Of a stretch of DNA of 64,000 nt, positions 45,652 to 62,788 are shown piece after piece. Positions within the stretch are counted from its first letter, which is position 1. Each line of letters opens with the position of its first letter. The translations under genes and the position numbers were made by a program. Source of the stretch: a bacterium (lineage in GTDB: Bacteria > Bacteroidota > Ignavibacteria > SZUA-365); contig JAHLLD010000001.1 of NCBI GenBank assembly GCA_020444325.1, positions 62,001 to 126,000 on the forward strand. The letters are read 5' to 3'. The notes beneath the pieces were generated by a model. The model was not told where the DNA came from. It saw only the letters and a program-made list of their open reading frames with translations, and did not search any database.

Positions 45652-47628
45652 TCACTTCAGCACGGTCATCAACCTCGACTGTGTGACTTCTCCGATGTCC
45701 ATGCGGCAGATATAGGTCCCGTTTTGGAGCGTCGATACGTCGAAGTCCTGCACGTGATGGCCAGGCTCGTATGTCCGCTCCCTGACCTGCTGTACGGCAC
45801 GACCCAGCATGTCGTAGATGGTAAAACGAACATTGCCTCGTTTTGCGACCTGAAATGAGACATTTGTCTTACCTGCGGCTGGATTTGGGTAGAGGCTCTG
45901 CAGCATGCTCCGTTGAGGAACTGGTGTGATGATATCACTTGTGATCGGCGGCGAGCTGCAGGTGTCTACACTCACGTAGTCGATCTCATAGCGGACAGGA
46001 AACTGTGATGTGTCTATGTCAAATCCCGGCCAATTTCCGCCGATTGCAAGGTTCAGGATGACGAAAAACGGCCTGTGGAACTCTGCGGTACCGTTTATTC
46101 CATCCTTGATATTGGCTATGTGATATTGGACACCATCAAGGATCCAGATGATTGATTCCTGATCCCAGAACACGGTGTATACATGCCATTCACCCGGATC
46201 AAACCCTGTCGTTCCGCCGTAGTCAGCCTGGCAGGTATCCCACCAGTGCATCGCACCGTGTACGTTGTCTGAAGTATTTATGTGTTCCATGATGTCAATC
46301 TCACCACAGGCCGGCCAGGCAACGAAAGGAAACGATGTTCCAAGCATCCATGCAGCGGACCAGGCCCCCTGCACCTGAGGGACCCTGGCACGAACTGAAA
46401 CACAGCCATATTTCATGCACTTGAGTCCCTGTGTCTTCAGGCGTGCAGAGGTGAACGCACGGCCATTGTAATCTTCATGGTGTGCTTCAATGACAAGTAC
46501 AGTGTCCTCAATACGTGCATTCGTGTTCCTGTCCGTATAGTACTGCTGCTCGTTGTTTCCCCATCCATTGACACCCGTTCCAATGTCGAAAGTCCAGATG
46601 TTGCTGTCAATTTCAGGGCCATTGAAATCATCCCTCCATGTAGTTTCCTCACAGGCTGAATCCGGCGGAATCGAACTTGAGCGATACACTCCTTTCGTTC
46701 TCGTGCCTGCATAGAGGTAGCCGTTTCCATCTGAGCAAAGTGCAGTGATATCGGGGTCGCAGAGGCCGTCGTTGATCTCTGTCCAGCTGTCAGCATGATT
46801 GAGGGACATGAACACCCCTCCTCCATTCGTCCCTGCATACACCGTGTCATGGTCAACACACAGGGCACGCACATCCATGTTGAGGAGTCCCTCATTGACT
46901 GCTGTCCAATCCGCATTGTCCTGCTGTGAGCGGAAAATGCCGGAGGAGCCGCCGAGGTAGATGAAATCAGGTTCATGGACGGCCAGAATCGGCATCCCTG
47001 TCTGAGCCACCTTGCCAAAACTGTTCCTCAGGGCTCCATTCTCCAGGTGTATGGTGTCGACATAAACGGAGTCATTCAATTCGTAGGCAGCATAGAGCAA
47101 CTTGTCCATCGAAATCGCAATGGCACGGATATTTCCCAAGGTATGCCCCGTGTATTCAGCAGTATCAGCAAGACCGTCGAATCTGTACAGGCTCGTCCAA
47201 GCTGCCATGTAGGTCGTATCCGCATCGAAGGCGAACCCCCAGACCATGCTTGAATCCTCCCAGACCCTTGTCCAGCTCTGTCCATCATCTGTCGATCGGT
47301 GTGCCTGACCAAGCCCTCCGATGAAGACCCAGTCCCTGTCATTGATGCCGATACAGGTGACATTTGTTCCGATCAGGCTGGAATCCGTTATATCCCAGGT
47401 GTAGCCATGGTCGGTAGACCGATACACGCCATCATATGCAGTTCCTGCATAAACGTGTCCCTTGGAATTCACGGCCAGGCAGGTGATCTCACGATACTCA
47501 CCTGCCGGAGGATTCAAGTCCGGTCCATACGTGGGCACCCATCCTCGCTGTGCTGAGAGCTGCTGGACATTCACACACAGAACGATAAGCAGTGTCGTTG
47601 TCAATGTTTGTCGAATCAGGCAATTCAT
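45652..47628 (-). CDS. Secreted GH16 enzyme with beta-propeller-like repeats and T9SS signal
   Basis: The 658-residue protein has a signal peptide (~1-26), BNR/YCF48-like repeats (~45-320: VYAGTAYDGVYRSTDHGYTW, VYAGTNGGGVFMS, LYAGTRTKGVYRS), a GH16 beta-jelly-roll domain (~330-572) with the catalytic motif GEIDIMEH at 442-449 (Glu nucleophile and acid/base) and a C-terminal type IX sorting domain (~580-658: LYPNPAAGKTNVSF, IYDMLGRAV, GTYICRMDIG). It probably cleaves a beta-1,3- or beta-1,3/1,4-glucan or galactan outside the cell. GGAGG precedes ATG 47628. It is 13 bp from the gene upstream, so it belongs to the 50.8-45.7 kb operon. Confidence 0.92.
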   Translation of the reverse strand: MNCLIRQTLTTTLLIVLCVNVQQLSAQRGWVPTYGPDLNPPAGEYREITCLAVNSKGHVYAGTAYDGVYRSTDHGYTWDITDSSLIGTNVTCIGINDRDWVFIGGLGQAHRSTDDGQSWTRVWEDSSMVWGFAFDADTTYMAAWTSLYRFDGLADTAEYTGHTLGNIRAIAISMDKLLYAAYELNDSVYVDTIHLENGALRNSFGKVAQTGMPILAVHEPDFIYLGGSSGIFRSQQDNADWTAVNEGLLNMDVRALCVDHDTVYAGTNGGGVFMSLNHADSWTEINDGLCDPDITALCSDGNGYLYAGTRTKGVYRSSSIPPDSACEETTWRDDFNGPEIDSNIWTFDIGTGVNGWGNNEQQYYTDRNTNARIEDTVLVIEAHHEDYNGRAFTSARLKTQGLKCMKYGCVSVRARVPQVQGAWSAAWMLGTSFPFVAWPACGEIDIMEHINTSDNVHGAMHWWDTCQADYGGTTGFDPGEWHVYTVFWDQESIIWILDGVQYHIANIKDGINGTAEFHRPFFVILNLAIGGNWPGFDIDTSQFPVRYEIDYVSVDTCSSPPITSDIITPVPQRSMLQSLYPNPAAGKTNVSFQVAKRGNVRFTIYDMLGRAVQQVRERTYEPGHHVQDFDVSTLQNGTYICRMDIGEVTQSRLMTVLK

Positions 47629-50886: not shown

Positions 50887-50918
50887 GGGAGAATCTCCCA
50901 TGGAGCAGAATTTTTCCC
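50887..50918. promoter_or_regulatory. Paired activator-binding sites (UAS), 5' of exported-protein operon
   Basis: Site 1, GGGAGAATCTCCC (50,887-50,899), is palindromic. Site 2, CAGAATTTTTCCC (50,906-50,918), has a degenerate left half. Centres are 19 bp apart, about 90 and 109 bp upstream of the predicted sigma-54 start. The same layout occurs at 56,181-56,213. They are candidates for binding by the activator encoded at 51,122. Confidence 0.6.
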
Positions 50919-51082
50919 ATATTCTCACATTGTCAGATTGCTTTGCATGTCGGTATCACCTTCCTGTGTGCGCAATCCCCACCTTGCGACTTTCACGGTA
51001 AACGGCTAGTTTTCTCCTGAATCACGATATCCCGAGGTTTCTTCTCCCCATCACAGCGGATTCATCCTGCTGTTCATGATAC

Positions 51083-51098
51083 TGGGGTCAAGCCTGCA
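51083..51098 (+). promoter_or_regulatory. Weak -24/-12-like site before the activator gene
   Basis: TGGGGTCAAGCCTGCA keeps GG-N10-GC but the rest of the -24 box differs from consensus. The predicted start would leave a leader of only about 12 nt before ATG 51122. It may be chance; the gene may instead have an ordinary promoter. Confidence 0.25.
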
Positions 51099-51121
51099 TT
51101 CCATCACCCTGCGAGGCGGCC

Positions 51122-52957
51122 ATGATCACTTCACACATCCTCTACCTCTCCGATTTTACACAGGATAACGAGACGCTTGAGCTCTGCGGGTCGGGTCAAT
51201 CCCCCAAAAACGAGCAAGCCTTCCTTTCTCTAAGCTGCACCGGCAGGGGCTGGTTAACCAAAGCAGAGGACGGTCTATCTCTCAAGCTTACGGGAGACTT
51301 TTCACACGTGGTCATTACCCATGAACACAATGAATACCCGTGGGAAGGCTCTTGTACCTCTCTTGAAGTCGGTGATGTGCTGACACTGGATGAAAAAGAG
51401 AAAATATTCCTGCTTGATGAGAGCAGTACACTTCAGGCAGATGTGGAAAATGCACATCAGATGCTCGGAACCTTGCTCAGCATCCTTCGCACATTTCCCG
51501 CAGACAGGCACGGACGCAATACGCTGGACCCCTTCACCATTGTCAAACGGTTCAGTTCACAGTTGCAAAAGGCACTGGGTGCAACAGGAAGATATGTCTC
51601 GTACTCAAGGCCGGGTGAGTCAGATGAAAATTGGAATGTTGAAGCAGACACAGCAGGAAAACGAATCCATGCTTCCGAACTCATCCAGAAGGCCCTGGTC
51701 AAGGTCAACAGGACCCTGATGATTGATACATCAACAGAGCTTCACAACGAATACAAAGGTGAACTGGATTATGATAAAGTGCTCGTTGCTCCGTTGTACC
51801 GCGATAATAAACGGAACGGCTACATGATGTTCACCTGGGATACCCCAGAGATTGCAGAAGATACCACTCTTATGCTCTCAACTGTAGCTGTGAATGCGCT
51901 CGATATGGTTCTGTTCCAGAATGAACTGTTCTCAACGCTGAATGTTTCAACCACACGCACAGCAAACGCTGCAAATGGTATTGGAACGGAAGCTCAGCTG
52001 AGTAAGAGCTTCGATACCATAATTGAGACTCGCATGAAGCCCCTGGCAAAACACACAGTGGGAAAGGAGAAATCCATACTGCTGCTCGGTGAATCGGGAT
52101 CAGGGAAAGGCTACATGGCAAAGAAGTTTCATGAAAAGTTCTATGGTGACAAAAAGTGGAAAGAAATCAATCTCATGGAATTTTCCTCGGACCTGCGCAT
52201 ATCAAAACTTACGGGATGGAAGAAAGGAAGCTTCACAGGAGCACATGAAAACTACAAGGGTGTCTTCCATGAAGTGGGGGATGGTGTTCTCTTCATTGAT
52301 GAGTTCGGCGATCTCAGCACTGACCAACAGGTTGCACTGCTTACCATGCTGGGTTCAAAAAAATACTCTCGAGTCGGGGAGGAAACTGTACAAGACATTA
52401 AGTGCAAGATAGTTGCAGCAACAAACCGCCATCTCCCCACACTCATCCGGGAAGGAAAGTTCCGTGAAGACCTACTCCATCGCTTCTTCGCAGTCAGGAT
52501 TCCACCGTTGAATGAACGTCGCTATGACATTGCGAAAATTATCCGCGAGTATCTTAAGGATAACGAATTGAATATGTCAAAAGATGCCTTCAACTACCTT
52601 ATCAAACAAGACTATACAGAAGCAAACAACTGGCTCATCAGGAAAATCCTGGATCATCTCCACATTTATTATACAACCGAGGGCAAACAAGGGAAGTGGA
52701 ATGTGCAGGTGGTCAGGACTGCATGGGAAGAAGTGATGGACCTCTACGGGGGAGAAGTTTCAGGTCAGGCCCCCTATTTCCAGACCTTCTCTTTTATGGA
52801 ATTTGATCAGCTCAAGCATGAATATGTTGTCGCAGTTGAAAGCATAGAAGGGAACAAAGGTCTCAAACCTCGTCAAATAGCCAAGAAACTTCATATTGAG
52901 TTTACAACCTATGTTCATTGGTTAGGCTGGACACCTAGTGACAGGGAGGATACATGA
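51122..52957 (+). CDS. Sigma-54-dependent activator: N-terminal FHA-like, GAF, AAA+, HTH
   Basis: The 611-residue protein has an N-terminal beta-rich region (~1-105), a GAF domain (~113-270, VLVAPLYRDNKRNGYMMF), an AAA+ domain with Walker A GESGSGKG (323-330), the sigma-54 contact loop GSFTGA (369-374; usually GAFTGA), Walker B VLFIDEFGDLS (389-399) and arginine finger FREDLLHRF (447-455), and a C-terminal HTH (LKPRQIAKKLHIEFTTYV). The N-terminal part is FHA-like in length and ending (LEVGDVLTLD) but lacks the canonical phospho-threonine motif. It should bind UAS sites and drive sigma-54 promoters. ATGA overlap couples it to the kinase gene. It is the probable regulator of the island. Confidence 0.88.
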   Translation: MITSHILYLSDFTQDNETLELCGSGQSPKNEQAFLSLSCTGRGWLTKAEDGLSLKLTGDFSHVVITHEHNEYPWEGSCTSLEVGDVLTLDEKEKIFLLDESSTLQADVENAHQMLGTLLSILRTFPADRHGRNTLDPFTIVKRFSSQLQKALGATGRYVSYSRPGESDENWNVEADTAGKRIHASELIQKALVKVNRTLMIDTSTELHNEYKGELDYDKVLVAPLYRDNKRNGYMMFTWDTPEIAEDTTLMLSTVAVNALDMVLFQNELFSTLNVSTTRTANAANGIGTEAQLSKSFDTIIETRMKPLAKHTVGKEKSILLLGESGSGKGYMAKKFHEKFYGDKKWKEINLMEFSSDLRISKLTGWKKGSFTGAHENYKGVFHEVGDGVLFIDEFGDLSTDQQVALLTMLGSKKYSRVGEETVQDIKCKIVAATNRHLPTLIREGKFREDLLHRFFAVRIPPLNERRYDIAKIIREYLKDNELNMSKDAFNYLIKQDYTEANNWLIRKILDHLHIYYTTEGKQGKWNVQVVRTAWEEVMDLYGGEVSGQAPYFQTFSFMEFDQLKHEYVVAVESIEGNKGLKPRQIAKKLHIEFTTYVHWLGWTPSDREDT

Positions 52958-54312
52958 CCTGGCACCGGAAAACAGAGGGCGGTGGCAACGTACACATCGT
53001 GCGGAATGATCTTGGTGTGGAAGGGATAAAAAAAACACACCAACTACGGAAGGGGGAAACAATCGAACAATGCCAGAAACTGCTCTCAGCCCTGAGAACG
53101 GCACACAGTGAGGGCGCTGCCATACCGAATATCTTCGACGGCGATGTGGAGAAAGACGGATACTGGATGGTGATGGAGAGAATTCCTCTGCAGCATGCCG
53201 GTCTTGTATTCAAGCCTTCAAGTCATGGAGCAAACTCAGCAGAATTGTACGGAAGTATAAGGCATCTTCTTGTACAGATACTTCGCACACTTGAAATTCT
53301 TCACAGATATGAGATTATTCATCAGGACATCAAGCCTGAGAATATCCTCTGTGATCCGGTCAGTCAGGAATATTTTCTGATTGATTTTGGTGAGTCGAAA
53401 ACAAAAGAATACTATCTGGATCCACCCGATACCATTCCTGGCCGCAACAGCATATATGCTCCCACAGAGTACAGAACCCCGGAATCCTGGGACCTCTACT
53501 CCCTGGGGCTTACGGCAGCTGTATTGCTTACACATACGAAATTCAGCAGAGTTGTCAACCCAGCTGAAGTATCTACGAAACGTCTTTCCATATTTCAAAA
53601 ACTCAAGCAAATGCCAGGGCTCCCGACTGATATCCGGCAGGTCCTTGACCGAACACTTGCAGTTGATGTACGTGAGCAACCCGTATCCGCAAGGGAGCTT
53701 CTGGATATACTTGAGCCACCACCTCCAGAAAGGACATTGTCATTCCTGCAAAAACTGACTCTGGTTGTCCTGCTGCTTGTAGCAATGACCTCGCTTACAT
53801 ACTTCAGCTTTTTCAACAATGCATCCGGAGTAGACAACATCCCTGCACAACCATTGGATAAAGTTGTGACAGATACAAATGTGCAAGTGCAACCGGGTGA
53901 ACAAAGGTCAGGACAGGATAATACCCAAGCGGAAAAGCCGGGAAACATTGCTGGGAAGCGGACCCCGGTTCTGCACATAGAACATCCGACAGCAGGACAA
54001 TTCTGTGCTGAAATTAACACTGTCCGGGGGAAGGCCATGCCAGGCAGTCGTGTTGAGGTATTTGTTTCTGAGAAAAAAGATGGTGGCCGCACATGGTATG
54101 CTCAGAAGGCAGCAATCTCCCGGCAGGACAGCACCTGGGAAACCGCTGTACATATAGGCGGCAACAAAACCGAGCACGGGACGGAGTTTGAGATCGTTGT
54201 GATTACCGGTCTGTCAGACACAATTGCCTATGGTACCCAGGTTGAAAATCTGCCTGAAAAGGGCATTCGCAATACCGTTGTCGTGAAATGCAGGAACATT
54301 GACCGACAATGA
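52954..54312 (+). CDS. Transmembrane Ser/Thr protein kinase with unusual ectodomain
   Basis: The 452-residue protein has a kinase domain (~5-255) with a Gly-rich loop, catalytic lysine K26 in GIKK, HQDIKPEN (123-130), DFG (144-146) and the APTE segment near 169 as in PknB-like enzymes. One membrane helix is at ~264-286. The outer part (~338-445) holds VRGKAMPGSRVEVFVSEKK and WYAQKAAISRQDSTWETAV, which resemble the downstream lipoprotein. The N-terminal kinase is cytoplasmic, so it can signal to the activator. Overlap with the activator gene by 4 bp implies a dedicated pair. The kinase core is divergent but appears active. Confidence 0.88.
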   Translation: MTWHRKTEGGGNVHIVRNDLGVEGIKKTHQLRKGETIEQCQKLLSALRTAHSEGAAIPNIFDGDVEKDGYWMVMERIPLQHAGLVFKPSSHGANSAELYGSIRHLLVQILRTLEILHRYEIIHQDIKPENILCDPVSQEYFLIDFGESKTKEYYLDPPDTIPGRNSIYAPTEYRTPESWDLYSLGLTAAVLLTHTKFSRVVNPAEVSTKRLSIFQKLKQMPGLPTDIRQVLDRTLAVDVREQPVSARELLDILEPPPPERTLSFLQKLTLVVLLLVAMTSLTYFSFFNNASGVDNIPAQPLDKVVTDTNVQVQPGEQRSGQDNTQAEKPGNIAGKRTPVLHIEHPTAGQFCAEINTVRGKAMPGSRVEVFVSEKKDGGRTWYAQKAAISRQDSTWETAVHIGGNKTEHGTEFEIVVITGLSDTIAYGTQVENLPEKGIRNTVVVKCRNIDRQ

Positions 54313-54341
54313 GTCCTTTCTAACAAACCAAGGAGTACAAT

Positions 54342-54761
54342 ATGAAACACCTGCTTCTCATTCTTCTCAGCATTTCCATGTTTTCCGTTTCCTGTGCACA
54401 GGATGTCGAGAAGGGCAGCGACATGGAGTCCCTTGAAATCAGCATCCTTGACCCGGAGGCAGATGGTACTGTTTCGACAAAATATCGTGTAAAGGGCACT
54501 GTCTCTGATCCAGAAGTAGAGGTCTGGGTTATTGTCCTTGCTGAGGAAGTCGGTGAATACTGGGTGCAGGGACGTGCAACGGTAAAAAGTGATGGAAGCT
54601 GGTCCATCATCTGTCACTTCGGTGAAGCCGGGACACCGAGTGGGACACCGTTTGTCATTCAGGCAGTCGTCAATCCGGAAGAGGACATTGATACGGGTGA
54701 TAAACTGGACTACTGGCCGGAAGCAGAAGGAGCTTCCGACCCGGTGTCCGTGCAGAGGTAG
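54342..54761 (+). CDS. Lipoprotein with same domain as the kinase ectodomain
   Basis: The 139-residue protein has a lipobox with modified Cys18 (SVSC). Residues ~31-125 hold VKGTVSDPEVEVWVIV, YWVQGRATVKSDGSWSIIC and GTPFVIQAVV, which match the order and spacing of motifs in the kinase ectodomain: a V-x-G turn, VEV strand, W/Y-x-V/A-Q strand, D-x-x-W strand and hydrophobic final strand. It has a 29-bp spacer and AAGGAG ribosome-binding site after the kinase gene. It could be a decoy or a sensing partner at the periplasmic or outer-membrane surface; inference. Confidence 0.82.
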   Translation: MKHLLLILLSISMFSVSCAQDVEKGSDMESLEISILDPEADGTVSTKYRVKGTVSDPEVEVWVIVLAEEVGEYWVQGRATVKSDGSWSIICHFGEAGTPSGTPFVIQAVVNPEEDIDTGDKLDYWPEAEGASDPVSVQR

Positions 54762-54764
54762 TTT

Positions 54765-56036
54765 TCACTTCAATGGCTCATAGCTGAAGCTCTTGAAAAC
54801 AATCTCCACCCTGTCTCCATGTTCAGGGGGAATGTTGTCAAGCAGCCAAATATTCATCCTGGGTCTGAGGTCTCCACCGACAGTGGGGACCTCAGGTCCG
54901 TTATAAGTCCAGCGGTGTGGTTTCTCTCCCGGAAAGATGGATGAGAATTCCACCCTGTCGGGAAACCACGCTATCTGATGTGTTCCCGGTCCGATGGGAC
55001 CATCGAAACGGTGACGGTTTCCATCGATTTCCCACCATTGTTTCACGAACTGGTACGGCAGTCCATCCATCTCACCGAAATATCCAATTTCAACGTCCAA
55101 TTCCTGATCGTACTGTAACGAGTCGGACCAGGTGAACATACCGCAGATTACTGTGGGCTCCAGGTCCACTCCTCCTGCCCTGGTGAATGGACTCCGAATT
55201 TCTTCGATTTCCCACGTGTATCGTCCATACCCGAAAGTCCTGTCCTTCGGCATACCTATCACCTCTGCACAGGACCACTGTCCTTCATCGCTTTTCACAA
55301 GACTCAGGATCAACCTTCCATTCTCAATCCGTACATTCTTCTCTTTGAAAAGACAGGGCCCCGGGCCCACCAGGTCTTCTCCATGGTCCTTCACTTCCCA
55401 CATCCACGACGAAAACTCCACAATCGTGGGATACCCCGTGGGGGTGGCAGAGCCACCCCCGTCCGTATCGGAACCGTTGTCAACATGCGCTCCACTGCCC
55501 TCACCACTGAGCTGATACCCGTGCTGCTGTAGCCACTTGCTCCAATCGGTTTCAGAGGATTCAGTCAGCTCGATTGCCTGCTCAAGCAGCGTCTCACCGA
55601 TTCGTTGCTGTACGGCATATCCCGCATCCGTTGTTCCACTGTTATCGATGCGGTGATTCATCGCCCATGTCGGCCAGATTGGCTTTGCGAGGTCTTCACT
55701 CCACTCATCCTCATCGATCCCGCGCAGGGAAGCAACAGCAGTGACGAAAGACGCGCTTCCTTCCGCGTCTGCGATGAGCTGCTCAAACGCTCCACTCGAG
55801 AGAAACCTCGCACGATGGGCATCAGTGTAGCAGCCGTAGGAAGGACTCCCGCCGGGAAATACTTCTTCCCTCATCGCGTTCTCGATGACTTCGCGCAGCA
55901 GCACACGTGCCCGCTGAACATCCACAGTCTCGATGCTCTCAATCGAGGGTGATTCACTCCCACTCACATCTCCATCGCTGCATCCGGTGCCGAGTAACAC
56001 CAGAAGCAAAATCTGCAGCATTACAAAATGTCTCAT
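54765..56036 (-). CDS. GH16-like lipoprotein with N-terminal extension
   Basis: From ATG 56036, preceded by GGAGG, the product is 423 residues. A lipobox gives Cys19 (LLGTGC). Residues ~35-190 are an unknown mostly helical region with DADGxx-rich linker (HVDNGSDTDGGGSATPTG). The C-terminal ~215 residues have the GH16 jelly-roll pattern: YGRYTWEIEEI, the catalytic-like ELDVEIGYFGEM (E-x-D-x-E) and MNIWLLDN. It is convergent with the kinase-lipoprotein unit, 3 bp apart. A sigma-54-like site at 56,080-56,094 lies 44 bp upstream. It may hydrolyse or bind a beta-glycan. Confidence 0.82.
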   Translation of the reverse strand: MRHFVMLQILLLVLLGTGCSDGDVSGSESPSIESIETVDVQRARVLLREVIENAMREEVFPGGSPSYGCYTDAHRARFLSSGAFEQLIADAEGSASFVTAVASLRGIDEDEWSEDLAKPIWPTWAMNHRIDNSGTTDAGYAVQQRIGETLLEQAIELTESSETDWSKWLQQHGYQLSGEGSGAHVDNGSDTDGGGSATPTGYPTIVEFSSWMWEVKDHGEDLVGPGPCLFKEKNVRIENGRLILSLVKSDEGQWSCAEVIGMPKDRTFGYGRYTWEIEEIRSPFTRAGGVDLEPTVICGMFTWSDSLQYDQELDVEIGYFGEMDGLPYQFVKQWWEIDGNRHRFDGPIGPGTHQIAWFPDRVEFSSIFPGEKPHRWTYNGPEVPTVGGDLRPRMNIWLLDNIPPEHGDRVEIVFKSFSYEPLK

Positions 56037-56079
56037 GACATCCTCCAGTTTTTTGAAAATGGGTGCGATGGAAATGAGG

Positions 56080-56094
56080 ACCATAATCGTGCCA
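56080..56094 (-). promoter_or_regulatory. Sigma-54-type promoter of the GH16-like lipoprotein gene
   Basis: On the minus strand TGGCACGATTATGGT has a perfect -24 box TGGCACG, the right N4 spacer and TGGT in place of TTGC at -12. The G at -12 remains but C is changed, as in the divergent promoter at 56,279. Predicted start near 56,068. Confidence 0.5.
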
Positions 56095-56180
56095 GAACTG
56101 TCCGAGCGGTGATTGGGCTCAAATTACGGGTTTTCTCCTCTTTTTCACTGGCCACACGGCGGCGAATCCTGAAAAAAGAC

Positions 56181-56213
56181 GGGAATTATTCCCGTGTTTC
56201 AGGAAATATTCCC
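56181..56213. promoter_or_regulatory. Paired activator-binding sites (UAS) between divergent units
   Basis: Site 3, GGGAATTATTCCC (56,181-56,193, part of a 17-bp perfect palindrome ACGGGAATTATTCCCGT), and site 4, AGGAAATATTCCC (56,201-56,213), have centres 20 bp apart. They are about 98-139 bp from the predicted starts of the two divergent sigma-54-like promoters (56,068 and 56,305). The pairing and spacing repeat those at 50,887-50,918. Confidence 0.65.
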
Positions 56214-56278
56214 GGATCCCCTGAATTTCGTCCCTGCCGTCTTGCCCATTCTGTTGTCCTTTCGGCAATCTGAGTACA

Positions 56279-56293
56279 TGGCACAGTCTTTGT
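56279..56293 (+). promoter_or_regulatory. Sigma-54-type promoter of the MoxR-VWA operon
   Basis: TGGCACAGTCTTTGT matches TGGCACG-N4-TTGC except for the last box base and A for G at position 7. GG is 10 bp from the -12 G. Predicted start near 56,305, about 40 bp before ATG 56345, which is preceded by AGGAGACAGG. This is the best sigma-54-like site for the operon. Confidence 0.6.
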
Positions 56294-56344
56294 CCTCTGT
56301 ATCGCAGGAAAGCACGACAATCATGCGCAGATACAGGAGACAGG

Positions 56345-57577
56345 ATGAGAGAGTCCAGACAGCAAACGACTTCTGAAACACGGCACATTCTGCAGCAGGC
56401 CTGTGAGCTCATGGGGAGTATCGGACTGCAGTCACGGGTGGATGCCGGTGGTGAGGGACTCCATTCCATCGAGGAGCGAAGGGATGGAATCATTTCCCTT
56501 CGAGGCACGGTCAACGATGAGATACTCGATCTCAGTTTCTGTCTGGCGAAGGTCACAACGGAAAACCGAATGAATGTCGGTGTCCTCTTTCAACATCTCG
56601 AGAAGATCGGACACTTCGGCATCAATGTTTCCTTCATTCACAATCGCGATACCTCGGACGCTGGCACAGCAAAACTGTATGCCAGCTTCGGGGTGAAGCT
56701 GCAGCACTTCAGTCTTCCGCGTCTGAGTCTTCTCTCCGAGATCACAAAATCTCTCAACGAGTTTGCAAAGGCCATCCAGCTGCAGCTGCCACGCACACCG
56801 CGCGACACGGAGCTCAGGGAGCGCTACAACAGAGCCGGTGTCAGCGAGCACCTGGTTCCAGTATTTCCTCTGGACGAAGACCTCATGCAATTGCTTCCAC
56901 CGGAGTTGCCTCCCCTGCTGCACTGTCTGATGGATTATCTGAGAGCGGGGATATCATTTGCACTTCATTCCCGTCACCAGGTCCATGAGCACTTCCTGCT
57001 CTCCTGTCTTGCTTCAGCCGGCACTTCATCCAGTGGATTTACCATTGGAAGGACACAGGATGTGATGCTTCCGCCCAATTCTGTTGCACAGTTGGTAGCG
57101 AAATCACCTGGCATCGTGGCATTGCCTTTCACGACCGTGGTACCGACTGCCGAACACCGTCCTGCCCTCCCTGCAGTACTGCATGCCTTACATGCCAGGG
57201 GCACTGCAGTGATTTTCTGTCAGTACAGGACCGCTTCCGGCTGGCTGCAGCAGCTGCGGGAGGAGGGACATGAGGTTCAACTGCCTGTCATCCAGGTACC
57301 CGTCATTCCTTTCGATGTGCTGCAGGAATATGTGCTCCGCACAGAGGCCGCCGGTATCGGTGGACTCTCGGAGGAACAGCTGCGTTCGGCAAGGGAGCAT
57401 GTATCGGAGATGATGCATCTCTGTGGACCTGAAAACAGGGAAGGACTGCTCCCAGCCGTTATCCGCCGTGAACTCACTCTGCAGAAGAGCGGCGGCAGGG
57501 ATGGTGCCCTCTCACCCAATGCCTTCATCATCTCGCTTGAACACGCATTCATGAAAGACAATAAGGAGCTGCCATGA
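56345..57577 (+). CDS. Unknown protein, first gene of MoxR-VWA operon
   Basis: The 410-residue soluble protein is not recognised. The first ~130 residues have alternating strand/helix segments (DGIISLRGTVNDEILDLSFCLAK, VGVLFQHLEKIGHF), compatible with a small sensor or binding domain. The C-terminal half has VIQVPVIPFDVLQEYVLRTEAAGI and helices that resemble the end of an AAA+ module as in the next protein, but no Walker motif is visible. AGGAGACAGG precedes the ATG. It overlaps the MoxR-like gene by 4 bp. In known MoxR/VWA systems an extra partner protein is frequent; this could be one. Confidence 0.75.
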   Translation: MRESRQQTTSETRHILQQACELMGSIGLQSRVDAGGEGLHSIEERRDGIISLRGTVNDEILDLSFCLAKVTTENRMNVGVLFQHLEKIGHFGINVSFIHNRDTSDAGTAKLYASFGVKLQHFSLPRLSLLSEITKSLNEFAKAIQLQLPRTPRDTELRERYNRAGVSEHLVPVFPLDEDLMQLLPPELPPLLHCLMDYLRAGISFALHSRHQVHEHFLLSCLASAGTSSSGFTIGRTQDVMLPPNSVAQLVAKSPGIVALPFTTVVPTAEHRPALPAVLHALHARGTAVIFCQYRTASGWLQQLREEGHEVQLPVIQVPVIPFDVLQEYVLRTEAAGIGGLSEEQLRSAREHVSEMMHLCGPENREGLLPAVIRRELTLQKSGGRDGALSPNAFIISLEHAFMKDNKELP

Positions 57578-58650
57578 AAAACCTCCCCCCGATTTACAAC
57601 ATCACGGATGACATCCTCGACCTCGGGGACTATGATCTGATTGCGATTGATGGTCCCCCCGGGAAACACCCCGTCATCGTGTACAAGCGCCTGCTGCGAC
57701 AGCTTGCACAGTCACTCTATGGGGTCCATGGACATAATGTACACGTCTCCTCGGATACAGCCCTGGGCAAGACGGCCGTTCTCGAAGCGCTACTCGTGCC
57801 CGAAACAGCAAAAGTAATCATGAAAGCCTTCTCACTCCCCGTCCGTGAAGTTCGCAGTTTCTCCTACCCTGTCGCTGCCGTCGAATCCGCAGCGGAATGG
57901 TACAGAACCCTGCAGCTCAAGGGCGGGGAAACAACGTACGTGTACTCTCCACTCTTCTCATGGCTGGCGGAGCTGGAGGACGAACTGGAACGTGATCCCG
58001 AGGCAGCGATTGTCCCTGTATGCTGGCTGCTCGAGATGGGACGTGCGATCTCACCGTCAATCCAATCAGGACTTCTGGGCATCATTACCCGGGGAATTAT
58101 CCAGCATCCTGACGGGCGGGAATTTTGTCATGTCGGAAGAGCAACAAGATTTGTATCCGACAGCAACTATTTAGGACTCGAAGGACAGGGCCGGAGCAGA
58201 GGTGGTGGCCCGATGGAGAGTTTTCAAATGTGTGCTCCAGACAGAAGTCTTTTCCGTCGTTTCCCCGTCGTGGTCCGGCCGCGTCCCTTCCAGCTCGAAG
58301 AGGAAACAGCCATTCTCATGCACCTGCTCCACTGGGAAGGCATCAGGGATTACGATGAGGCACTGCTGCATACTGTCGTAAGGATCTCGCACCGCGTACG
58401 CGAGTTCCAAAGGAGCGGTGTTTTTTTATCGGCCAACCCCGGGATCGCGATTTGCATGGAAATGCTGCGGATGTCGCTGGAGAGAGGCCGTGATGACGAT
58501 CTTATCACGGATGACCTGCTTACAACGACACTGCTGGGAAACTGCAGTGAGGAAGAGCAGAGAGAACACATCCCGGTCCTGCTCGAGCAGGTCACAGGAA
58601 GCAAGCGCGGGAAACTCTCGCGGCTGTCCGCACTGGAAAACATGCTGTGA
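57574..58650 (+). CDS. MoxR-like AAA+ protein with altered Walker residues
   Basis: The 358-residue protein follows the MoxR outline: a P-loop-like SDTALGKTAV (60-69), where the first Gly is Ser; WLLEMGRA (151-158) followed by PSIQSGLL, where the Walker B Asp is Leu but Glu is retained; SDSNYLG (195-201) as sensor 1; SLFRRF (225-230) as arginine finger; then a helical lid. MoxR ATPases partner VWA proteins in assembling or remodelling complexes. Here the altered Walker motifs suggest reduced or absent ATP hydrolysis. It is in one operon with the VWA gene, 6 bp apart. The MoxR call is by motif order only. Confidence 0.75.
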   Translation: MKNLPPIYNITDDILDLGDYDLIAIDGPPGKHPVIVYKRLLRQLAQSLYGVHGHNVHVSSDTALGKTAVLEALLVPETAKVIMKAFSLPVREVRSFSYPVAAVESAAEWYRTLQLKGGETTYVYSPLFSWLAELEDELERDPEAAIVPVCWLLEMGRAISPSIQSGLLGIITRGIIQHPDGREFCHVGRATRFVSDSNYLGLEGQGRSRGGGPMESFQMCAPDRSLFRRFPVVVRPRPFQLEEETAILMHLLHWEGIRDYDEALLHTVVRISHRVREFQRSGVFLSANPGIAICMEMLRMSLERGRDDDLITDDLLTTTLLGNCSEEEQREHIPVLLEQVTGSKRGKLSRLSALENML

Positions 58651-58656
58651 TGCATC

Positions 58657-60717
58657 ATGAATCACTTTGAATACACCAGGCGCCTGCCATTTCCCTACCG
58701 CTCTCACCTTCAACGGTATGGCATTGCCATGGCCGATGCATTTCGGATGGAATTGCCAACCGCAATCCGCAAACATGCGCGTGAAAAATTCGACCGTGCT
58801 GCTGCAGATGCACGTGCGGCAGCCAATCGCACGCTGTTCGATGGGGACAGGTTGCCGCACCCTACGGACACGGAAGTGCAGCTCGCTCCCTGCTATGTCC
58901 AATCCTGGCCGCTGGAAATCGCGGTACAAAGTGCGATCGGACTGACCTGCTTTCTCGATGCGAGGCGGTATACACAGTATCTGCCGGAGGCCTGCAGAAA
59001 CAGCGACAAACTGCTTGAATCGCTGGTCGATAAAGCGGCGGATGAGAACGTCCCCGTCGAAGGACTCCTCAACCTCTGCGCAAAGGCTGTGGAAGGACGC
59101 ATGCTGTCTGAGCTGATTCGGCGACATGCTGACCTCGATGTCCCCATAGAGAGCTACCGCCTCTTCCTGGCGGCGCAGCAGAGCATGCAGTTCTCCAGTA
59201 TCGCCGAAATAATCGATGCCGCTGTTCTGTTTTCCGATGTCCTGCCCCAGGGACAGCAGCTGCGCATGCATCCCATTTCGCGCAAACTGTTCCGTCTGTT
59301 GTCTGATGCCTCAGAAACCTATCTCGAGGCACTGCCCGGACTCCGTTCCGAGATCCTCTTGTACAAAGGCATCCAGTGGGCTTTCGATCTGGCCCTCATT
59401 CTTGTCAAACACGTCAGCCGTCAACAGCGGGATGAGAACAGACGAAACAGGAATGTTCAACGAAAACAGATCGAACCACTTGCCGCGCTTCGTCCCCCCC
59501 GCATGTTGAATCGTCCATCAAACCCGGGGTGGAGACTGCAGGAGCAGTTGATTCCACAGGAGGACGAGGATGAAACTGATGACGGCGATTCCGGTAACAA
59601 TGAGAAGAAGCAAAGCAATGCGGATGACAGCAGGGATGAAGCTGCTGCCCGTGCTGCCCGGGCACTCCAGGATCTGTCAACGACGATTCAGCAGACCCTG
59701 CCACCCCGCGAGGCTGTGGATTCCTCCCATACAGAGCTTGCCGCACAGCTCAGGGATCATGCATTCGAGGAAGGTCCCACGGAATTCGAGCTCGAGCGCA
59801 TGGAAATACGGCTGCGGCAATCGCATCTGGATTTCACTGTCGGCGGAATCATCGAAACCGTGGTCAAGGCGGACTGCGATAATGAGATACTCGAACGCCT
59901 GCGCTATGATGCCAATCCCCTCGCAAACGCAATCGACGGATTGTTTTTCCACGGCAAAGTAAACCCTGAGGTTCACATCGAACATCGGCACACACGGGGT
60001 GCAATCGATCCGGCACGCCTGGCTGTCATCAGTTTCTCGGAAACGGTGTATCGCCGCATGTACCCTGTGCGAAAAGAAGGGAAAGATCATTCCGCGCTGC
60101 TCGCCATTGCCGCGGATGTTTCCTCCTCGCTTTCTCGCAGGCAGCTGGCCATGGTGAAGTTGCTTTGTTCCGGATTTCTCCTCTCCAAGGCACATCGGAT
60201 GGAAATGCTGATGGCCATGTACACCGGCATTCAAACAACCAGGCGCAGGCAGCTTGAAGCGCTGGTGGATTGGATTATTCATCCCGTAAAGACCGCAAAG
60301 CGTTCGCCGGAGGAAGCAATGCACGCACTCGCCGGGTATTCCTCATCCAGAGGTCAACAGCTCGATGCCCTCACCCTGAAGCATCTCATCGACACATGCA
60401 TGGATTGCAGAGTAGATCCGGAGCAGACCCTGTACTACTGCTGGATAACGGATGCGGTGTGGAAGCCAAGCGGAATGATGCAGGGAACGCCGCATCAAGA
60501 AGTAAAGGCAGTACTCTCAGGACTGAAGCACATGTATGGTCAATCGCTTCATCTCACACTCATCATCCTCGGTGATAATGAGCATGGCCTCGCGGACCTT
60601 CCAGATGCCGTCGTGCGGGTGAAAAATGAGGAACTCAGCGATGTCGGTGCCACAGCCCAACGGCTTGCGGATTACGTTGCCGGCATGGTCATAAAGCAGG
60701 GAAGGAGTGTGACATGA
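58657..60717 (+). CDS. VWA-domain protein, partner of MoxR-like protein
   Basis: The 686-residue protein has a helical N-terminal ~300 residues, an acidic, Lys/Asp-rich linker (DEDETDDGDSGNNEKKQSNAD) around 305-335 and a C-terminal VWA domain with the MIDAS motif AADVSSSLS (D-x-S-x-S) at about residue 485, as in CoxE/ViaA/BatA-like partners of MoxR ATPases. LTLIILGDNEH near the end could be the VWA strand with the last acidic residue. No signal peptide is seen, so it is cytosolic. Start ATG 58657 follows the stop of the MoxR-like gene by 6 bp. Confidence 0.82.
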   Translation: MNHFEYTRRLPFPYRSHLQRYGIAMADAFRMELPTAIRKHAREKFDRAAADARAAANRTLFDGDRLPHPTDTEVQLAPCYVQSWPLEIAVQSAIGLTCFLDARRYTQYLPEACRNSDKLLESLVDKAADENVPVEGLLNLCAKAVEGRMLSELIRRHADLDVPIESYRLFLAAQQSMQFSSIAEIIDAAVLFSDVLPQGQQLRMHPISRKLFRLLSDASETYLEALPGLRSEILLYKGIQWAFDLALILVKHVSRQQRDENRRNRNVQRKQIEPLAALRPPRMLNRPSNPGWRLQEQLIPQEDEDETDDGDSGNNEKKQSNADDSRDEAAARAARALQDLSTTIQQTLPPREAVDSSHTELAAQLRDHAFEEGPTEFELERMEIRLRQSHLDFTVGGIIETVVKADCDNEILERLRYDANPLANAIDGLFFHGKVNPEVHIEHRHTRGAIDPARLAVISFSETVYRRMYPVRKEGKDHSALLAIAADVSSSLSRRQLAMVKLLCSGFLLSKAHRMEMLMAMYTGIQTTRRRQLEALVDWIIHPVKTAKRSPEEAMHALAGYSSSRGQQLDALTLKHLIDTCMDCRVDPEQTLYYCWITDAVWKPSGMMQGTPHQEVKAVLSGLKHMYGQSLHLTLIILGDNEHGLADLPDAVVRVKNEELSDVGATAQRLADYVAGMVIKQGRSVT

Positions 60718-61814
60718 AACACTACAATATGAAAGGTGTGGAAATACTGAATTCCGGTCTGGAGATCAGGGCACCCCGGATTGCAACTTCGCTGTATTAC
60801 CGCACCACGCTCAGTATCCTCATCATCCATTTGCGCACCCTCGACAACCTGCGCATGAAGCTTGAGCGAATTGGCGGAACTGTGCGTACACTCGAAGAAT
60901 TCCATGAACTGTTGCGGCTGCCTGTGCAGATTGCATCTTCAAGGGGATCGGTACAATGCTCCCTCGCAGACCGCGATCGCCTCAGGCACCTGTTGTATGA
61001 GATCGGGGGTGGAAGTGTGCATTTGGACATCAGGCAGAGCAATGACTCCGGACTACCGATTTTCTTTCTCTGCAGAACAACGCCCACGCACATAACCTGT
61101 CCTGTCATTCTCGAAGAATTTCATGCATCTCCCGGATACCATTTCACAGACGCACGATTCAAGACACTCAGGATACTCGGTGAGAAACAGGTCTGTCTGC
61201 GTGTGGCGCGCTTCCGGGAAAAAACAGGGGATTTCTTCGGGTATGAGTTCGACAGGGCCAACGATGTGCTTCTCCAGGACCTGGGGGTTTATCTCCTCTC
61301 CGCAATGTGGGATGAGCTTCAGCGCCCCGCGTTTATTCTCTGCGATGCCCTCAATCCGGCCCTGAGCCATTTCCAGGAGGCAACGGAATTGACGTCCCTT
61401 GCCTGGACGGCCGATCCTACGACATTAAGCTCCCGGGTAACCCCGCACATCCTGCGTTTTTTCCGCGACGTCTATCCGCGGGAAGCAATAGCGCGCTTCC
61501 TGGAAACACTCGAAACTCTCAGCGGAGCTCACCGCAGGAAAATACCGGCTCGAGCGGAAAAACTGCATTTTGCACTTGAAGAATCCTACACCACGTTTCT
61601 CGAAACCCCGGTGCCCTGGAGCAGCGTGCGCAGCAGCGTGCCCATCTGGAAGATTCTTTACGCCAACCTCAACCGCATGACAACATTGCACGGCGTACTT
61701 CAGGAGAACCAGCCGCTGATGGAAGCAGCTGCAGAGCTGGACAGCATCGCAGAGGAGATCATCGGCGAGTTCCTCGATTCCATCGGAAGTCCCAGACCAG
61801 GAAGCACTACTTAG
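60714..61814 (+). CDS. Unknown protein in MoxR-VWA operon
   Basis: The 366-residue soluble protein overlaps the VWA gene by 4 bp. I do not recognise the family. It has several helix-rich segments, a short Cys pattern (VQCS, FFLCR, LCDA) and a basic middle (ARFREKTGDFFGYEFDRA). Tandem CACTACTTAGAA copies at the 3' end include its TAG stop. Because it is always-overlapping with the VWA gene in this operon it is probably a third structural part of the system. Confidence 0.75.
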   Translation: MKHYNMKGVEILNSGLEIRAPRIATSLYYRTTLSILIIHLRTLDNLRMKLERIGGTVRTLEEFHELLRLPVQIASSRGSVQCSLADRDRLRHLLYEIGGGSVHLDIRQSNDSGLPIFFLCRTTPTHITCPVILEEFHASPGYHFTDARFKTLRILGEKQVCLRVARFREKTGDFFGYEFDRANDVLLQDLGVYLLSAMWDELQRPAFILCDALNPALSHFQEATELTSLAWTADPTTLSSRVTPHILRFFRDVYPREAIARFLETLETLSGAHRRKIPARAEKLHFALEESYTTFLETPVPWSSVRSSVPIWKILYANLNRMTTLHGVLQENQPLMEAAAELDSIAEEIIGEFLDSIGSPRPGSTT

Positions 61815-61828
61815 AACACTACTTAGAA
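61805..61828 (+). repeat. Tandem 12-bp duplication over a stop codon
   Basis: CACTACTTAGAA occurs twice in a row, at 61,805-61,816 and 61,817-61,828. The first copy contains the stop of the unknown gene; the second copy lies in the spacer before the PRPP synthetase ribosome-binding site (AAGGAG). It is a recent small slippage event. Confidence 0.9.
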
Positions 61829-61840
61829 GGAGACACGATC

Positions 61841-62788
61841 ATGCGCGACGACAGGATTACGCTACTCGGAGGAAGTGGGAGTCCTTCACTGACCCGCAAC
61901 ATCTGCGACTACCTGGAGATCGTCCCCGCTCAAAGCAGCGTGCGGAAATTTTCTGAAGGCAATATTTTCGTGAAAATCGAAGAGAATGTCCGGGGACGGG
62001 ATGTCTATCTGCTTCAGTCCACCGCAGCCCCAGTCAACGATAATTTCATGGAGCTGCTGTTCTGGATAGACGCCTGCAAACGCGCGAGCGCCGCGAGTGT
62101 GACAGCCATCATCCCGTGGTTCAGCTACTCAAAGGGGGACAAGAAAGACGAACCCAGAGTATCGATCAGGGCGCGCGTCTGTGCCGATGCAATCGAAACC
62201 GCCGGCGCTGACCGTGTGGTTACCGTGGATCTCCACGCTGCGCAGATCCAGGGTTTCTTTCGCATCCCCGTCGACGACCTGCGTGCCGCTCCCCTGCTCT
62301 GTTCGGCTCTCGAAGCGGAAGTCCGCGGTCCCGCCGTCATCGTCTCGCCCGATGCCGGATTTGCAAAACGCGCCCGAATCTTTGCCGACCGCCTTGGTCT
62401 TCCCCTGGCAATCGCGGAGAAACAGCGTGCTGCACATGACGAAAAGGCGTCAGTAGGTGGTATCATCGGGGATGTTGCCGGGAAGACGGCCATTCTGGTC
62501 GACGATTTCACCATCAGTGCCGGCACACTGATTTCAGCAGCAGACCGGCTGCTCGAACATGGAGCCAGCCGCGTGCTCGCTGCAGTCACCCATGGCGTAT
62601 TCGCATCAGATACCATTCGCCGCATCGACGAAAGCCGCATCGAGAAGCTCTTCATCACCGACACCGTCGAGCCAGCGCAGTCCCACCAAAGCGGAAAAAT
62701 CACCATCTGCAGCATCGCCCCGCTCATCGGCGAAGCCATACGCAGAATCCACACCCGCCAGAGCATCAGTGTGCTGTTTGAGAGTTAA
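61841..62788 (+). CDS. prs: Ribose-phosphate pyrophosphokinase
   Basis: The 315-residue protein is a PRPP synthetase-family enzyme with IIPWFSYSKGDKKDEPRVSI (in place of YARQDRK of classical enzymes), DLHAAQIQGFF at ~129, VSPDAGFAKRA and the PRPP loop VDDFTISAGT at ~222. The DKKDEPR form is found in a subgroup of bacterial PRPP synthetases. It makes phosphoribosyl pyrophosphate from ribose 5-phosphate and ATP. It is preceded by AAGGAG and is 26 bp from the unknown gene, so it is co-transcribed. Whether it is housekeeping or part of the system is open. Confidence 0.88.
   Translation: MRDDRITLLGGSGSPSLTRNICDYLEIVPAQSSVRKFSEGNIFVKIEENVRGRDVYLLQSTAAPVNDNFMELLFWIDACKRASAASVTAIIPWFSYSKGDKKDEPRVSIRARVCADAIETAGADRVVTVDLHAAQIQGFFRIPVDDLRAAPLLCSALEAEVRGPAVIVSPDAGFAKRARIFADRLGLPLAIAEKQRAAHDEKASVGGIIGDVAGKTAILVDDFTISAGTLISAADRLLEHGASRVLAAVTHGVFASDTIRRIDESRIEKLFITDTVEPAQSHQSGKITICSIAPLIGEAIRRIHTRQSISVLFES

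Follow-up and report, generated by a model that had tools for sequence, protein, structure and literature searches.

Comparison with known sigma-54 activators

A -24/-12 promoter typically has the binding sites of its sigma-54 activator about 100-150 bp upstream (PMC7057263), and the tandem sites of NtrC-type activators follow the consensus TGCACCAnnnTGGTGCA (PMC8743547). We analysed a 64,000-nucleotide stretch of the genome of an Ignavibacteria bacterium (GenBank assembly GCA_020444325.1, contig JAHLLD010000001.1, positions 62,001 to 126,000; here called the window, with positions counted from its first letter), in which two intergenic arrays of paired GGGA-N5-TCCC sites lie on either side of P0002, a gene for a sigma-54 activator. 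Our preferred reading, held with some reservation, is that these arrays serve a local sigma-54 switch as its upstream activator (enhancer) sites and that P0002 is their likely binder. The regulatory principle itself is already well known.

Like NtrC-type sites, those described here are inverted repeats upstream of candidate -24/-12 promoters, and the neighbouring activator carries an AAA+ domain and a Fis-like helix-turn-helix. Unlike NtrC-type systems, the half-sites read GGGA-W5-TCCC, no receiver domain is recognised in P0002, two to three sites are common to divergent promoters, and binding by P0002 is predicted. The closest named family for the AAA+ domain of P0002 is RtcR, the activator of the rtcBA RNA repair operon (NCBIfam, 152.8 bits over residues 313-499 only, against a cut-off of 650; PADLOC RtcR_PspF2, 6e-48, 162 bits), and in both cases a local activator lies beside its presumed targets. 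Membership in RtcR entails an N-terminal CARF domain and a score over the family cut-off; in P0002 no CARF domain was detected and the score is far too low, no rtcA or rtcB was present among the genes examined here, and, unlike in RtcR systems, a Ser/Thr kinase gene adjoins the activator.

Two arrays of tandem sites

Both arrays are composed of near-palindromic tandem sites about two helical turns apart, on one face of the helix (Table 1). An earlier sequence-only reading had reported two sites in each, and re-reading confirmed its letters and coordinates for both pairs, together with spacings of 19 bp from site a to site b of array 1 and 20 bp in array 2; the weak third copy in array 2, at 56222, is an addition. 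Because the motif had been read off the sites, we chose a test that did not presuppose it. Every one of the 256 possible 4-base half-sites, inverted around a gap of 5 bases, was scored for tandem pairs at spacings of 17-22 bp over both whole intergenic regions. GGGA ranked first, scoring 29 of 32 (runner-up 24). This score was reached by none of 1000 dinucleotide shuffles (mean 24.1, maximum 27) and by one of 2145 pairs of real intergenic regions, presumably the pair formed by the two arrays themselves; the background sample was the contiguous 400 kb around the window. The sequence-only reading had named equal frequency of such pairs in random intergenic DNA as the result that would count against it, and it survived this comparison. 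The arrays were also the only tandem pairs in the 400 kb to score at least 22 of 26 against GGGAWWWWWTCCC, a ranking that is partly circular.

A search of all 4.65 Mb of the genome gave 11 exact matches to GGGA-N5-TCCC-N13-18-TCCC, versus none for a reversed control. Eight of these sit under open reading frames of at least 150 residues, one is GC-rich and falls in a 78-bp gap without a -24/-12 element, and the remaining two are arrays 1 and 2, the only ones of the 11 that are intergenic and also have a well-placed -24/-12 element. The sequence-only reading had proposed a check for whether such pairs gather upstream of -24/-12 sites across the genome; no such clustering was found, and the pairs are confined to this locus.

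Candidate promoters and the activator gene

Three sigma-54-like elements are correctly oriented toward the genes that flank the arrays, with implied leaders of 25-40 nt before start codons that have good Shine-Dalgarno sequences. The inferred starts are at about 50803 for P0004 (leader of about 25 nt, AGGAGG before the ATG, array 1 between about -84 and -115), about 56305 for the P0003 operon (leader of about 40 nt, centres of the array 2 sites at about -77 to -118) and about 56068 for P0005 (array 2 centres at about -119 to -160), the last of which led us to move the start codon of P0005 from 56084 to the ATG at 56037. Overall the site centres fall between about -77 and -160, close to the distances cited above for sigma-54 activators. 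The best element among 134 other upstream regions of the 400 kb scored 9/11 and was found in six regions, including that of P0003, so that the 10/11 of P0004 is higher; the P0004 upstream region was outside this set, as the rough gene caller had retained a spurious 77-residue reading frame there. Counting both strands, the 400 kb contain the pattern TGGCAC-N5-TNGTC three times, and two of the three occurrences flank array 2 divergently.

The AAA+ domain of P0002 has the Walker motifs and an intact sigma-54 contact loop of the GAFTGA type, reading GSFTGA, a variant also present in other natural activators of the class. The Fis-like helix-turn-helix was identified from an alignment of the C-terminus and from three modelled helices at residues 558-601, of locally moderate confidence. 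The N-terminal 300 residues had no Pfam match; within them, residues 1-110, likewise without a match, were modelled with a confidence mostly below 40, and the N-terminus is possibly FHA-like, in the manner of FHA-domain sigma-54 activators coupled to a Ser/Thr kinase, and then GAF-like. The structure models of P0002 and of the operon protein P0008 (predicted local distance difference test, pLDDT, of 53 and 35) were too poor for fold searches. Peptide patterns gave no close relatives of P0002 in 84,980 genomes, and 60 relatives gave matches to the general AAA+ domain only. The N-terminal 280 residues found nothing convincing in 294 genomes of the class (best 0.004), and the C-terminal region found nothing in 11 relatives, a set without the genome G010 described below.

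The next gene encodes a Ser/Thr protein kinase, P0001, which has a single hydrophobic, transmembrane-like segment and whose C-terminal domain resembles the lipoprotein-like P0006 (8e-06 in a two-sequence comparison), and it is possible that the three genes P0002-P0001-P0006 (51122-54761) constitute a kinase-gated activator. The statement of the sequence-only reading that nothing else in the window explains the shared motif did not hold, as the activator gene between the arrays is the obvious candidate. What did hold of its sigma-54 interpretation, besides the non-random tandem sites, was the placement of both arrays at enhancer distance from -24/-12-like elements, now joined by the activator gene and by the presence of rpoN in the same genome (PF04552, 5e-59); genome-wide clustering and the want of any other explanation were the parts that fell.

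Table 1. Positions of the array sites, candidate promoters and genes in the window.
Feature	Position	Strand	Description
Array 1 site a	50887-50899	none	GGGAGAATCTCCC; perfect 13-bp palindrome about one central base, palindrome score 6/6
Array 1 site b	50906-50918	none	CAGAATTTTTCCC; 6/8 specified bases, one good half-site
Array 2 site a	56181-56193	none	GGGAATTATTCCC; perfect palindrome
Array 2 site b	56201-56213	none	AGGAAATATTCCC; 7/8, 20 bp from site a
Array 2 site c	56222-56234	none	TGAATTTCGTCCC; weak third copy, 6/8, 21 bp past site b
Candidate sigma-54 promoter of P0004	50829-50814	minus	TGGCCCGGATCTTGCC; 10/11
Candidate sigma-54 promoter of P0003 operon	56279-56294	plus	TGGCACAGTCTTTGTC; 9/11
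Sigma-54-like element toward P0005	56094-56079	minus	TGGCACGATTATGGTC; 8/11
P0002	51122-52957	plus	sigma-54 activator, 611 residues; Pfam Sigma54_activat 1e-38; between the arrays
P0001	52954-54312	plus	Ser/Thr protein kinase, 452 residues; Pfam Pkinase 3e-15; overlaps P0002 by 4 bp
P0006	54342-54761	plus	lipoprotein-like, 139 residues; resembles C-terminal domain of P0001
P0004	49489-50778	minus	presumed target, 429 residues; signal peptide apparent at the N-terminus; no match in Pfam or NCBIfam
P0005	54765-56037	minus	lipoprotein, presumed target; likely start ATG 56037, behind GGAGG and before lipoprotein signal
Presumed target operon	56345-62788	plus	five genes: P0003, P0007, P0008, P0009, P0010
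P0003	56345-57577	plus	no family
P0007	57574-58650	plus	MoxR/CobS-like AAA+
P0008	58657-60717	plus	vWA-like; DxSxS as in vWA metal ion-dependent adhesion sites (MIDAS)
P0009	60714-61814	plus	no family
P0010	61841-62788	plus	phosphoribosyl pyrophosphate (PRPP) synthetase family

Proposed mechanism

The sites, their non-random occurrence and geometry, rpoN and the activator gene with its intact contact loop are established computationally; P0002 as the binder, the use of the -24/-12 elements and the gating by the kinase are what we infer. Dimers of P0002 would bind the near-palindromic GGGA-W5-TCCC sites, 19-21 bp apart on one face of the helix, under the probable control of the neighbouring kinase P0001; bound P0002 would then oligomerise and loop to RNA polymerase-sigma-54 waiting at the -24/-12 elements, and so could switch on P0004, the lipoprotein gene P0005 and the AAA+/vWA/PRPP-synthetase operon P0003-P0010. 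If P0002 does bind both arrays and activate its neighbours, the regulon would for that reason be local and not genome-wide. An orphan sigma-54 activator from a sparsely studied part of the Bacteroidota would thereby gain a probable binding site, targets and a regulator, and there would be a means of inducing a rare, functionally uncharacterised gene set, present in only three of the genomes searched. Only tentatively do we extend the proposal to a Ser/Thr-kinase-gated, RtcR-like sigma-54 activator that, through a previously undescribed GGGA-W5-TCCC site, might control a rare AAA+/vWA/PRPP-synthetase system, itself undescribed, together with associated exported proteins in Ignavibacteria-related bacteria.

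Evidence from related genomes

Upstream of a homologous operon in G010, a genome of another genus in the same family, we found a similar triple array (L037, start codon 936), with GGGTAAAAATCCC at 710, GTGAAAAATCCCC at 727 and TGGAAAAATATTCC from 747. A three-site cluster score of at least 34 was reached only by this array and array 2 in about 680 kb, and the recurrence before a homologous operon supports the interpretation of the array as a conserved cis-element.

Several observations weigh against the proposed switch, some of them from the same genome. The G010 sites are spaced 17 and 21 bp apart, and the pair score of that region alone was reached in 22 of 1000 shuffles, so that the support it lends is only moderate. 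G010 has no detected relative of P0002 beyond the general AAA+ domain and no recognisable -24/-12 element between the array and the gene. The homologous operon of G002, from the same genus as the window genome, has no array in the available sequence, with other genes in front and the contig ending soon after. Within the window, site b of array 1 is weak, and the P0003 and P0005 elements carry GT and not GC at -12. Sigma-54-like matches are generally not enriched between genes (13 intergenic of 231 at score 9), and the sigma-54 test was done after the motif was known. In G010 another protein may read the site, the resemblance may be partly accidental, or P0002 may have been lost or replaced. 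Since neither a P0002 relative nor a -24/-12 element was recognised alongside the G010 array, the case for the local sigma-54 activator as binder is one of inference, and for the same reason we hold the view that these are real activator sites more confidently than the view that they are sites of P0002. A sigma-70-like TTGACT-17-TAATTC before the G010 operon, noted by eye, was given no support by the scan.

Alternative explanations

The arrays might be real sites of another regulator, whether another sigma-54 activator or a sigma-70-type activator or repressor, with P0002 a mere neighbour. G010 speaks for this, since its array precedes the homologous operon with no P0002 relative detected and no -24/-12 element recognised, as does the finding of 14 matches to a P0002 query within the window genome (G000), from which it follows that other activators exist. 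We nevertheless consider it rather unlikely, as the arrays in the window genome flank only P0002-P0001 and no other intergenic case with a -24/-12 element occurs, just as a local regulator predicts, whereas more targets would be expected of a global one. A different account would see only site a of array 2, which with its flank (56179-56195, minus strand) is also terminator-like, with ACGGGAATAATTCCCGT and then CTTTTTT; on this account the site is an intrinsic terminator and its resemblance to the others incidental. A terminator scan did detect the stem-loop with its T-run (0.4 expected in shuffles), but the location is flanked by divergent genes, so that termination on the minus strand would affect antisense RNA only, and the account leaves sites b and c, array 1 and the G010 array unexplained, with no terminator found by the scan at array 1 or in G010. 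It is, in our judgement, very improbable.

Chance was also considered, in that short palindromes could have been selected by a reader scanning 64 kb. Most relatives have about 3-6 single perfect GGGA-W5-TCCC sites per genome, mainly in coding sequence, and the weakness of site b in array 1 also favours this explanation. Perfect GGGAWWWWWTCCC sites numbered 38 in 12 related genomes versus none for the reversed word, which at first was suggestive; this excess may be codon or word bias. As a regulon marker in these 12 genomes, single perfect GGGA-W5-TCCC sites were rejected, because they were mostly coding and unpaired and thus define no regulon. For the paired arrays, on the other hand, chance is improbable given the shuffles and the single real intergenic pair in 2145, the independent recurrence of an array before the homologous operon in G010, and the fact that the window arrays coincide with the -24/-12 element that scores best in the 400 kb. 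The reading of the arrays as enhancer sites of a local sigma-54 switch is the one we retain.

The presumed targets

No homologues of P0004 or P0005 were found in 20 relatives, where they had been sought for the upstream motif, and P0005 had no family match. By eye P0005 appeared GH16-like, a suggestion that no profile supports. Separately, the gene of a GH16 protein that carries a type IX secretion tail lies near the activator locus, at 45652-47628 on the minus strand.

The operon that is presumably controlled, rather than the switch, is the most interesting unknown. In MoxR-vWA pairs such as NorQ/NorD, RavA/ViaA and CobS/CobT, and in the MoxR-vWA ternary conflict systems (PMC7159879), a MoxR/CobS-like AAA+ protein is paired with a vWA-like protein, and the same is true here of P0007 and its MIDAS-like DxSxS neighbour P0008. 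What sets the operon apart is that no third component with a name, VMAP and iSTAND included, was found in it, that P0003 and P0009 have no family, and that it includes a PRPP synthetase. The assignment of P0007 comes from an AAA_5 match in its G010 homologue and a weak CobS match of the profile, which we preferred to the best PDB profile matches, 80 residues of TAL-effector repeats that we took as spurious. P0008 had no vWA profile match; its residues D487, S489 and S491 are invariant in three homologues.

Homologous gene sets were found only in G002 and G010 among the genomes of the class and phylum searched. Downstream of the operon, the G010 contig showed no PRPP synthetase gene. Directly before the P0003 homologue of G002 is the gene (L038:6230-7711, minus strand) for a protein whose C-terminus, judged by eye, is similarly secretion-tail-like, and in G010 the P0003 homologue has an extra C-terminal P-loop region.

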